Assembly: GCA_913774715.1 (NCBI GenBank) | Contig: CAJYHS010000236.1 | Span: 1 to 58,663, forward strand | Reading direction: 5' to 3' | Source: an uncultured Siphonobacter sp. | Lineage (GTDB): Bacteria > Bacteroidota > Bacteroidia > Cytophagales > Spirosomataceae | Length of the DNA stretch: 58,663 nt | Shown: in pieces, positions 47,168 through 49,341 of the stretch | Position numbering within the stretch: position 1 is the first letter of the stretch | How the letters are laid out: every line of letters starts with the position of its first letter | Translations under genes and position numbers: made by a program | Notes under the pieces: model-generated | Databases searched by the model: none | The model's input: only the letters and a program-made list of their open reading frames with translations | What the model was told of the DNA's origin: nothing

Positions 47168-48538
47168 TTACTTCTTTTGTAGCAACTGAACAGAACTGTC
47201 GTTGATCTCAAACTGGTTCTTTTTCAATAAATTAATAACTTCAGACGCAGCCAGAATTACAGGCCCGTATCCATGAGCAGCGTAAGGACTGATGGGGCGG
47301 TGGTAATAAAAGGCAGGCTCAAAACCCATTCCCGTCCCTACGCAGGTACCTTCTACCTGCCCTTTAGCATTCACTTTGGTAGCAACGGCGTTCCAGGCTA
47401 GGAGGCAGGCAGGAGAATACGCAAGTCTGTCAATCCACCCTTTATTAATAGCCCGGGCTATGCAATACGCGTAAATGGCCGTTGCCGAAGTTTCTAGGTA
47501 GGAATCATTGCGGTCAATTAGTTGATGCCAGAACCCAGAGCCTGACTGATACGAAGTCAAACCTTGCACATGAGCCCGTAACAGTTCCAGAATTTGAGCC
47601 CGTTGCGGATGATTCTCTGGTAATACTTCTAATAATTCTACTTTGGTCAGGATAGCCCAACCATTGGCTCTTGCCCAGTGAAACTGCGGGTGAGTACTCA
47701 TGCCTTCCACCCAGCCATGCATGTATAAACCCTTTTGAGAATTGAACATCCGTTTGGAAAACTGTATTACCTGCTTAACAGCTTCGTCGTAATATTTTTT
47801 ATCGCCAGTTAGTTTACCCATTTGAGCAATGGCTGGAACGCCCATGAATAAGTCATCCAGCCAGAGTGAATTGGGTTGCGGGCGATTACGGGCCAGCGTA
47901 CCATCACTGAGGCGAAATTCTTTTTTCATAATATAGTTTACAAAATGGTCTACCAGCGGACGAAGCTGGGTAGAGTTAACATCTCGCAGGGATTTAATCA
48001 TGGCCGCGGTCAGTGCTCCACCATCATCAAGAGCGTGAGGAGCCAGAAACGAACGCATTGCCAGGCGGTTATTGGGATCAGCCTGTAATAAAGGCTGAAA
48101 ATGAGGAGCGATGTCAGCTAGAAACTTGAGTCGTTCGTCCGTATAGGCTTTGTATTTAGGATCGCCTGTTGCTTCAGTAGCCTGTAAAAAAGCCGCATAG
48201 GTTACACCCCACTCATAACTTGTCAGACGAAAGTCAGCTTTAGCAAACGTGGAATTTGCATCAACTTTCGAATAATCAGTAATGGCTTTACCGCTTTGTT
48301 TATCTACTAACTGGGCTGGAGTAACCTCCTTTAGATAGTCGTAAATACGATTTAAAACTTGGGTTGTATGTTCTACCGAAACCAATCCGTAAGGTACAGG
48401 ATAGTCCGGTTGTAATAGATGCAGTGGAGTATCGGCATCCGTTGCTTTAGTTTCGTTTCGCTGAGCTAATGCAGGACTAGTCACGGAAGCTATCAACAAA
48501 GAGGTAAATCCCGCCAGACGTATAACTGATCTCATCAT
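47168..48538 (-). CDS. Glycoside hydrolase family 88/105 protein (unsaturated glucuronyl/rhamnogalacturonyl hydrolase type)
   Basis: The 456-residue protein has a signal peptide (MMRSVIRLAGFTSLLIASVT continuing to cleavage after ALA). The alpha6/alpha6-barrel signs of YteR-like enzymes are there: LDDLFMGVPAIAQMGKLTG (about 224-242) with the catalytic-type Asp, HGWVEGMSTHPQFHWARANG (about 272-291), and GSGFWHQLIDRNDSYLETSA (about 333-352). These enzymes remove unsaturated uronic acids left by polysaccharide lyases by a hydration mechanism. No lyase, SusC/D pair or regulator is next to it, so it is an orphan rather than part of a visible utilisation locus. The start could be the second Met. Confidence 0.88.
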   Translation of the reverse strand: MMRSVIRLAGFTSLLIASVTSPALAQRNETKATDADTPLHLLQPDYPVPYGLVSVEHTTQVLNRIYDYLKEVTPAQLVDKQSGKAITDYSKVDANSTFAKADFRLTSYEWGVTYAAFLQATEATGDPKYKAYTDERLKFLADIAPHFQPLLQADPNNRLAMRSFLAPHALDDGGALTAAMIKSLRDVNSTQLRPLVDHFVNYIMKKEFRLSDGTLARNRPQPNSLWLDDLFMGVPAIAQMGKLTGDKKYYDEAVKQVIQFSKRMFNSQKGLYMHGWVEGMSTHPQFHWARANGWAILTKVELLEVLPENHPQRAQILELLRAHVQGLTSYQSGSGFWHQLIDRNDSYLETSATAIYAYCIARAINKGWIDRLAYSPACLLAWNAVATKVNAKGQVEGTCVGTGMGFEPAFYYHRPISPYAAHGYGPVILAASEVINLLKKNQFEINDSSVQLLQKK

Positions 48539-48624
48539 TTGAAAGTTAGGATTAGAGTAGTAAAGGGATAATTACACAAATGACTTCAAAAGAGGAGTAG
48601 CCCCTTAGAAATGATAATTATGGA
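48539..48624. other. Leader region of the GH105 gene
   Basis: This part of the 374-bp gap between the GH105 gene and the response regulator is AT-rich with no frame. It must hold the GH105 promoter if the small-RNA terminator works. No clear TAnnTTTG box is seen. Confidence 0.4.
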
Positions 48625-48753
48625 TAAAAGAAAAACCCATTCAGCTTAAAAAGCTGGATGGGTTTGGCTAAAGTCAATTAGTACCACCGCCATGGTCTAA
48701 TCCTTGATACTATTTTTATCAGTAATCAAACCGCCATCTGACTAACTGATTGC
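48625..48753 (-). ncRNA. Candidate small RNA with two AUGGCGGU-presenting hairpins
   Basis: No credible open frame exists here (the longest from ATG is MAVVLIDFSQTHPAF). The RNA would begin about seven bases after the -7 box at 48758-48765 and end at the terminator at 48633-48665, about 130 nt in all. Hairpin 1: ATCAGT-T-AGTCA pairs with TGATTACTGAT, with the loop GATGGCGGTT. Hairpin 2: TAGTATC pairs with GGTACTA, and its apical region again contains ATGGCGGT. A short linker precedes the terminator stem. Duplicated loop motifs suggest base-pairing to ACCGCCAU-bearing targets or binding of a protein. I know no family that matches. It lies between a response regulator and a GH105 gene, all on the minus strand. 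Confidence 0.55.
48633..48665 (-). terminator. Terminator of the candidate small RNA
   Basis: On the minus strand AAACCCATCCAGCTT-TTT-AAGCTGAATGGGTTT is followed by TTCTTTT: a 15-bp stem with one G-U pair and a U-tract. Confidence 0.85.
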
Positions 48754-48757
48754 TCTA

Positions 48758-48765
48758 CAAATGTA
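48758..48765 (-). promoter_or_regulatory. -7 box of the candidate small RNA
   Basis: The minus strand reads TACATTTG, a full match to TAnnTTTG. The -33 region has a T-run (CAATTTTTTC) but no clean TTG at 19-20 bp. Confidence 0.5.
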
Positions 48766-48843
48766 TAGCAGTAGTGAAAAAATTGACTTTGGTTTTCGTT
48801 GATTGGTATGTTTTGTCCGACGACTGGTAGGATTATACCTGTT

Positions 48844-48872
48844 TTAGGTATTTTTTAGTATAAAATACCTAA
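48844..48872. repeat. AT-rich 11-bp palindrome between the response regulator and the small RNA
   Basis: TTAGGTATTTT (48844-48854) pairs perfectly with AAAATACCTAA (48862-48872), 7-base centre. No T-run follows on the minus strand, so it is either a weak response-regulator terminator or an operator-like dyad about 80 bp upstream of the small-RNA box. Confidence 0.5.
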
Positions 48873-48912
48873 TATAAATATTGCAACTCTTAACTAGCAA
48901 TCATGCATTTAG

Positions 48913-49341
48913 CTAATTACGAGAAGGTAATTTGACAATATTGGCCCAAAAATCGTATAAGCTGGCAAATGTTTTAACCAGATCAGAATAACTCGAAGGT
49001 TTAATAATATAAGAGTTAGCTCCGTGTAAGTAAGCACTTTTAATATCCTCGTTAACGGAAGAAGTGCTCATTACAATGATAGGAAGTGAAGAAATAGAAG
49101 GGGTATGACGTATGTTCTTGACGATATCAGCCCCCGCACCAGGGCGTAAATTCCAGTCTAAAATGATGAGATCAGGTAATTTACCTTCCGCAGGCTCTAA
49201 TCGATTAAATAATTCATTTTCAGAGCTAACAGCTTCCCATTGTATATAGTTACTAACCTCCGAAAAGGCCTCTTTAACAAGAAACTGATCGTCTACATCG
49301 TCATCAGCTAGTAAAATATGCAGAGTAGAATGGTCAACCAT
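48913..49341 (-). CDS. Single-domain response regulator (REC only)
   Basis: The 142-residue protein is a receiver domain with no output domain. Phosphorylation site residues are all there: acidic cluster D13-D14-D15 in LLADDDVDDQ, phospho-acceptor D62 in LIILDWNL, Ser/Thr at 92-94 in VMSTSS, and K114 in YIIKPSS. The acidic double DVDDQ and the long loop LRPGAGA resemble the Rcp1/CheY-like group that pairs with phytochromes or hybrid kinases. No histidine kinase gene is near. It must signal by protein contact. A promoter with both -33 and -7 elements lies just upstream. Confidence 0.92.
   Translation of the reverse strand: MVDHSTLHILLADDDVDDQFLVKEAFSEVSNYIQWEAVSSENELFNRLEPAEGKLPDLIILDWNLRPGAGADIVKNIRHTPSISSLPIIVMSTSSVNEDIKSAYLHGANSYIIKPSSYSDLVKTFASLYDFWANIVKLPSRN

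Follow-up and report, generated by a model that had tools for sequence, protein, structure and literature searches.

A candidate small RNA gene between a receiver gene and a GH88 gene

The 58,663-nt stretch analysed here (the window; uncultured Siphonobacter sp., contig CAJYHS010000236.1) carries, in the gap 48539-48912 between genes for a response-regulator receiver protein and a glycosyl hydrolase of family 88 (GH88), a minus-strand element that is very probably, judged by its sequence, a small non-coding RNA (sRNA) gene. Comparison with related loci makes it highly likely that this is a real sRNA gene belonging to a multicopy family. The parts of the locus are the following.

48626..48752, minus strand: putative small RNA gene, 5′ end placed from the promoter and 3′ end from the U-tract
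48799..48828, minus strand: LytTR-format direct repeat, ACCAGTCGT (48828-48820), 12-nt spacer, ACCAATCAA (48807-48799)
48758..48765, minus strand: -7 box TACATTTG, Bacteroidota promoter element by sequence match
48718..48750, minus strand: hairpin 1, outer stem AUCAGU/ACUGAU, apical stem AGUCAGAU/GUUUGAUU, loop GGCG, based on covariation
48736-48731, minus strand: hexaloop UGGCGG of hairpin 1
48676..48702, minus strand: hairpin 2, GAUUAG-ACCAU[GGCG]GUGGU-A-CUAAUU, based on relatives and covariation
48692-48687, minus strand: hexaloop UGGCGG of hairpin 2
48626..48665, minus strand: intrinsic terminator, AAACCCAU...AUGGGUUU, inner CAGCUU/AAGCUG, then U-tract
48913-49341: response-regulator receiver gene (Pfam), one flank of the gap
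47168-48538: GH88 gene (Pfam), other flank of the gap

As a first-pass annotation of this DNA had stated, the gap lacks a credible open reading frame (ORF; none of at least 60 aa in 48539-48912), and its minus strand has the -7 box (48765-48758), hairpin 1 (48750-48718) and, within a stretch of ~125 nt, two occurrences of AUGGCGGU (48737-48730 and 48693-48686). The terminator described there is likewise present (48665-48633 plus the U-tract), but its stem consists of 8+6 pairs around one mismatch rather than 15 pairs; the second hairpin, drawn as UAGUAUC/GGUACUA, is not conserved and gives way to the form at 48702-48676 that relatives back. No Rfam 15 family matches the window at or above its gathering threshold; up to E 10, 48539-48912 yields 7 matches, none of them convincing, the best being the trpB motif (26.4 bits vs a threshold of 59).

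The predicted fold of the window RNA (−43.3 kcal/mol, z = −5.07) is better than those of 200/200 dinucleotide shuffles. Taken alone, this copy would slightly prefer a rearranged long hairpin (−41.5 kcal/mol) to the two-hairpin form (−40.7), a difference of 0.8 kcal/mol; the outer stem of hairpin 1 has an estimated probability of ~0.11, and the apical stem of hairpin 2 one of ~0.21. The two-hairpin form is accepted because relatives support it. The relatives L003 and L004 are predicted to fold as two tandem hairpins plus a terminator, and a further copy, L109, also folds differently.

Related copies and covariation of the stems

A blastn search of 99 genomes gives two clear matches outside the window's genome, both syntenic and from the same genus: L003 (E 2.6e-12, 75%) and L004 (E 0.005, 70%); the remaining rows are many and short (E 0.006-1). 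Aligned with the window, these relatives have the promoter box, a hairpin 1 that is re-lettered yet paired, and the terminator, whose stem is retained in L004 despite different letters. CAUGGCGGUGG in hairpin 2 is invariant across the three copies, and the first AUGGCGGU is replaced by ACGACGGU and GUGGCGGC in the two relatives. A covariance model of both hairpins built from these copies (R1), in which 5/23 pairs are changed on both sides and 92.6% of cells are paired vs at most 46.3% in slid controls, was searched against 200 genomes of the taxonomic family; its 19 matches in 7 genomes, 18 of them in all six same-genus genomes and one, weak, elsewhere (G022, E 0.04), reveal paralogs.

A second covariance model (R2), restricted to hairpin 1 and built from 20 copies, finds 31 copies in 6/6 Siphonobacter genomes once 4 weak rows of 35 (E 0.10, 0.37, 0.70, 0.83) are dropped. 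Copy numbers are 6, 7, 1, 8, 8 and 1 for G000-G005, with a single copy only in G002 and G005 and up to 8 per genome elsewhere. The set analysed below holds 30 of the 31, copy L039 (G004:C123) being left out; L122, L113 and L117b were also dropped from it. Among the 20 copies of the model, 8/12 pairs are changed on both sides, and the covariation score of 0.313, which kinship among sequences can inflate, is matched by 0/500 shuffles and compares with at most 0.187 for slid versions. Overall, 85.8% of hairpin 1 cells are paired; the value of 80.0% in the outer stem implies that the stem is imperfect in many copies.

Beyond the genus, R2 matches 14 of 222 genomes of the taxonomic family at E <=0.1, namely the 6 Siphonobacter genomes and 8 others (E 0.01-0.09); no convincing copy is seen in the other 216, four of the 8 weak matches having been inspected (L139-L142, of which L139 is the nitrate leader described below). 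At the level of the order (390 genomes), 14 match at E <=0.1, 2 of which are the genus genomes in the sample; among the 12 others, four were inspected (L143-L146), L145 showing a GGCGG stretch inside a kinase-like gene and the rest no such loop, and the best of the non-genus matches, G318 (E 2e-4), has no such loop in the stretch inspected. An exact-pattern search of a contig collection returns 25 matches, 9 on Siphonobacter contigs and 16 elsewhere, three of the latter (L062, L063, L070) being inspected and found to resemble coding DNA. Carriage by phages is rejected, the sole viral-contig match with the family pattern lacking such a hairpin by eye, and so is carriage by plasmids, the window RNA having no counterpart among the sequences of a plasmid collection.

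The Siphonobacter copies show the several related intergenic paralogs per genome expected of a multicopy family of sibling sRNAs. The covariance search for conserved stems that the first-pass annotation proposed has accordingly been run with a positive outcome, and its undescribed sRNA gene survives in that relatives also have the promoter box, the stems, the loops and the terminator, and in that no Rfam family matches at threshold; what it took for a single RNA is, however, a paralogous family. At the level of the nucleotide sequence, there is a family with stems, loops, promoter-like elements and terminators. The literature searched contains no description of it, although one elsewhere is possible.

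Two further observations concern the surroundings of the copies. A fragment, GAAAAGTGGCGGCTTTGA (L117 3683-3701, minus strand), lies ~400-450 nt from a full copy and is possibly a decayed one. In L115, L131, L132 and L138, sRNA copies are found near the 3′ end of convergent genes that are similar at the N-terminus, with YadA_head and Peptidase_S74 domains in the two scanned (L115, L131); copies near genes of this type may have multiplied together with them.

The YGRCGR hexaloop

Repetition of one motif in different stems had been read as duplication of the 8-mer AUGGCGGU; the loop motif does recur in relatives, but the unit that is kept is a hexaloop, YGRCGR. Counting such loops when closed by at least 3 pairs, the 30 copies hold 40 hexaloop hairpins vs 0.34 expected from dinucleotide shuffles, with two or three in 12/30, one in 15/30 and none in 3/30. 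Beyond hairpin 1 lie 13 of the 40, on which the model thus exerted no selection; eight of them look like terminators or terminator-like hairpins when judged by eye. The loop is UGGCGG in 29 cases, CGACGG in 5, UGACGA in 5 and CGACGA in 1, and positions 1 and 6 could pair in 39/40, by which the hexaloop may close to GRCG.

Promoter-like elements and LytTR-format repeats

The full TAnnTTTG occurs at the expected place in 16/30 copies and at least 5/6 of its letters in 28/30, as against 0.9% and 9.5%, respectively, of random windows of the same loci. Further upstream, an unsupervised motif search returns CCATTAATCGAA, whose best site is −51 to −44 from the model start in 27/30 copies, three of which (L112, L137, L138) score poorly for it, and autocorrelation gives the highest base identity at offset 21 (offsets 5 to 49). 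LytTR regulator sites are listed in Tables 2-3 of PMC6193735 as 9-bp direct repeats with 12-bp spacing (9-12-9); when 9-mer pairs are scored in this format, the mean best score peaks at period 21. Scores of at least 9/12 are most frequent at period 21 (21/30 copies), followed by period 20 (15 copies), no other period tested exceeding 10 copies; scores of at least 10/12 are reached by 12 copies at period 21 vs 11 at period 20. The window's own repeat scores 10/12 and lies no more than 2 nt from the position in most other copies. Autocorrelation, motif search and format score overlap in the data they use, which come from related copies, and do not constitute independent evidence.

The copies thus appear to have the repeat format of a LytTR regulon, 9-12-9 upstream of a promoter, and a LytTR-type regulator would drive them. 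One of the genomes, G001, encodes a response regulator with a LytTR domain (L269 13704-14384; Response_reg plus PF04397, 68.4 bits, above cut-off) that is 40% identical over 235 residues to the query. In L109 and L133, three rather than two ATCGA/ATCGG-containing repeats, at 21-nt spacing, are seen upstream of the sRNA.

Hexaloop hairpins in nitrate-operon leaders of other genera

A weak R2 match led outside Siphonobacter, to the leader of a nitrate-assimilation operon. In five genomes, all of one other genus, the genes that follow this leader encode porin, NarK and nitrate reductase; a sixth leader is found in G107, of another genus, where the contig ends soon after. Each of these six seed leaders has two hairpins, with a UGGCGG hexaloop in 11/12 and CGGCGG in hairpin 1 of L154; 10/25 hairpin pairs covary, and a GGUU.AA/UU.AACC pairing before the start codon is also shared by all six. 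An Rfam match was sought in leaders L171, L172 and L174-L176, and none was found. A model of the leader matches 18/222 genomes at E <1e-4 (the 6 seeds, 11 of genus g31, and G021) and 55 in all; ~9 weaker loci, taken outside those in Siphonobacter G000, G001 and G002, were inspected, several being unrelated hairpins, and by eye partial or loop-changed leaders exist also in G044, G105 and G030. In several leader genomes, a TrpD2/YbiB-like gene, whose similarity is below NCBIfam cut-offs, is adjacent to the leader or belongs to its cluster.

L171 8520-8640, L172-L176; also L199-L210, L212, L217, L220: nitrate leaders with tandem UGGCGG-hexaloop hairpins, several genera (hairpin single or changed in L212, L217 and L220)
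L171 1473-2777, minus strand; L223 11171-12442, plus strand; L224 9648-10934, plus strand; L227 7412-8719, minus strand: TrpD2/YbiB-like genes in the vicinity of the UGGCGG leader

PMC10123104 describes the YbiB protein of E. coli as a TrpD2 protein that binds DNA. The link between leader and gene is loose: G105 has a leader-like hairpin yet is outside the 73 family genomes that hold the gene, and many of the 73 show no leader. As partner of the sRNAs the TrpD2/YbiB-like protein is rejected, since none of the 6 Siphonobacter genomes holds it. The occurrence of the tandem-UGGCGG leader by such a gene in several genera offers an independent lead on the control of nitrate assimilation. A different hairpin, with a YGGGGG loop (for example GGUG-UGGGGG-CACC), is present instead in the nitrate leader after cobA (L185-L192) in the five Siphonobacter genomes with NarK and in G222, G009 and G043.

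Judged by sequence comparison, the shared hexaloop and tandem layout suggest that leader and sRNA hairpins are recognised by protein, and the nitrate leader is a possible clue to the protein partner; because the model is biased to GGCGG loops, neither a common origin nor a common partner of the two is established. Unlikely as a whole is a scenario in which a Bacteroidota RNA-binding regulator recognises the UGGCGG/YGRCGR hexaloop, acting in cis on the nitrate leader in other genera, while in Siphonobacter the hairpin became one to eight LytTR-controlled sponge sRNAs per genome.

Mode of action

None of the 30 copies overlaps a retained ORF of at least 80 aa, and the next downstream gene, which varies between loci, is convergent in 16/30 and ends 7-21 nt from model position 85 in 6/30. 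Differing and often convergent neighbours, together with the lack of ORF overlap, favour action in trans, and the sRNAs probably work in this way through their repeated hexaloop. We infer transcription, control by a LytTR regulator, trans action and a protein partner, and picture them as steps of one mechanism. A LytTR-type response regulator would bind the 9-12-9 direct repeats and drive the TAnnTTTG promoter; the resulting RNA, of about 85-130 nt, would end at its own terminator and display the YGRCGR hexaloop on one to three hairpins, often including that of the terminator; and these repeated hairpins would bind and titrate a hexaloop-recognising RNA-binding protein, following a CsrB/RsmZ-like logic. 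Protein titration is slightly favoured over antisense pairing, with a chance close to even, because the same hexaloop sits in unrelated stems and because nitrate-operon leaders of other genera bear tandem UGGCGG-hexaloop hairpins.

Several points weigh against this picture. Pairing in the outer stem of hairpin 1 extends to only 80% of cells, and the counting rule finds no hexaloop hairpin in three of the 30 copies (L136-L138). The nitrate leader came to light through a weak match, and the model concerned is one favouring GGCGG loops; in the 5 Siphonobacter genomes holding NarK, the nitrate leaders lack the UGGCGG motif, and the TrpD2/YbiB-like gene, present in 73/222 family genomes, occurs in 0/6 of this genus, so that a partner common to leader and sRNAs is not required. 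The hairpin-regulon and start-pairing tests were applied to 800 kb of one relative, G001. Under a strict rule, this stretch gives no sign of a regulon of mRNA leaders that share the hairpin: its intergenic part, put at ~114 kb, contains 3 strong YGRCGR hairpins, 2 of them in known sRNAs, vs a mean of 1.4 and a top class of 6 among 180 permuted loop classes, the rule itself recovering 2/3 known sRNA copies in the 800 kb. Finally, AGUGGCGGCUUUGA is kept in many copies beyond what the hairpin needs, which fits a pairing seed equally well. As a separate observation, G001:C1:258980 (L260) has a strong unexplained hairpin, UUCUUUCGUU[UGGCGG]AACGGAAGAA, ~750 nt from an sRNA copy.

The sRNAs could alternatively be multi-seed antisense regulators, whose loops GGCGG, GACGG and GACGA would pair with YCGYC near the starts of target mRNAs, in a manner comparable to the CU-rich pairing regions of Listeria LhrC1-5; this is a serious contender, if a somewhat doubtful one. 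The conservation of AGUGGCGGCUUUGA as sequence speaks for it, as does the precedent of FopS of Bacteroides, a 14-member paralogous family reported in PMC11697453 to repress translation of SusC-like transporters. At 612 start windows of G001, some flank words are up to ~2-3 times commoner than in coding sequence, with small counts (GCCACTT, 4 seen and ~1.7 expected; TTGTCGT, 5 and ~1.8), but the complement of the loop core is not enriched (CCGCCA, 5 vs ~13 expected; GCCGCC, 9 vs ~19), all expectations being derived from coding sequence with base composition uncorrected. These windows sample ~12% of one genome, so that a set of few targets would be missed; within them, pairing to ACCGCCAU near start codons, as put forward by the first-pass annotation, finds no consistent support. 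The 800 kb show no visible sign of either a hairpin regulon or antisense targeting on a broad scale.

Considerably less probable than either form of trans action is that the RNA is a cis-acting leader or attenuator of the downstream GH88 gene (47168-48538). The order response regulator-RNA-GH88 is shared by the window, L135, L118 and L130 and is thus kept in 4/5 genomes where the window's locus was found; L123 has RNA-GH88, and at the G005 locus no response regulator is seen in 1.5 kb upstream. GH88, a label given to the window protein by domain scan and to those of four relatives by N-terminal similarity, starts 137-199 nt past model position 85 in these five loci and ~95 nt past the terminator in the window. 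The leader reading is rejected because other copies, with the same kind of promoter and loops, adjoin different or convergent genes; the hairpins and terminator are, moreover, not mutually exclusive in folds. That a short peptide (MAV...) is encoded is most improbable and is rejected too: in three copies, translation from the second AUGGCGGUG would give MAVVLIDF, MAVDLLDL and MAVELISL, but L118 and L130 read M-T-V-stop, the frames that open at the hairpin-1 loop in 29/30 copies run for 3 to 57 codons and have no end in common, and no conserved reading frame was found among the 30 copies.

Comparison with known systems

Post-transcriptional control in Bacteroidota outside Bacteroides is, to our knowledge, little known, and the present multicopy family, whose promoter format can be recognised, whose loop is defined and for which a covariance model is at hand, provides a direct handle for finding its binding partner. 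The closest logic to protein titration is that of the CsrB/RsmZ sponge sRNAs, which carry one loop motif on several hairpins, are under two-component control and present GGA-type motifs bound by CsrA. The Siphonobacter sRNAs likewise repeat a loop motif and are probably under two-component control, but they have it on one to three hairpins only, and their loop is YGRCGR and not of GGA type, which sets them apart from the CsrA/RsmA sponges. The guanidine-II riboswitch (mini-ykkC) has tandem hairpins with ACGR tetraloops; it is rejected as well, being absent from the 7 Rfam matches up to E 10 in 48539-48912 and having a tetraloop where the present RNAs have a hexaloop.

ANTAR-target RNAs, as described in PMC8164766 and PMC3369931, consist of tandem hairpins with hexaloops bearing A at position 1 and G at position 4. 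Tandem hexaloop hairpins are common to both groups, as are nitrate genes in the leader form (PMC3369931, PMC8164766), but membership is rejected since the corresponding positions of the Siphonobacter loop are Y and C; the ANTAR domain PF03861 was detected in 0/16 genomes, but the 14 control genomes are equally silent.

Within the Bacteroidota, FopS/GibS of Bacteroides, studied together with RbpB (PMC11697453), are paralogous sRNAs too, present in multiple copies and equipped with promoters and a terminator hairpin. As far as the account in PMC11697453 goes, they differ from the Siphonobacter sRNAs, which have a folded 5′ hairpin with a conserved hexaloop; furthermore, FopS is there said to be deposited in Rfam, whereas the window RNA gives no Rfam match. 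LhrC1-5 of Listeria resemble the Siphonobacter family, according to the description in PMC5880928, in their paralogous copies, in a repeated exposed motif that includes the terminator loop, and in control by a two-component response regulator, as proposed here. Unlike in LhrC1-5 (PMC5880928), where CU-rich regions pair with the Shine-Dalgarno site, the motif of the Siphonobacter sRNAs is YGRCGR in structured hexaloops, and their promoter format suggests a regulator of the LytTR type.
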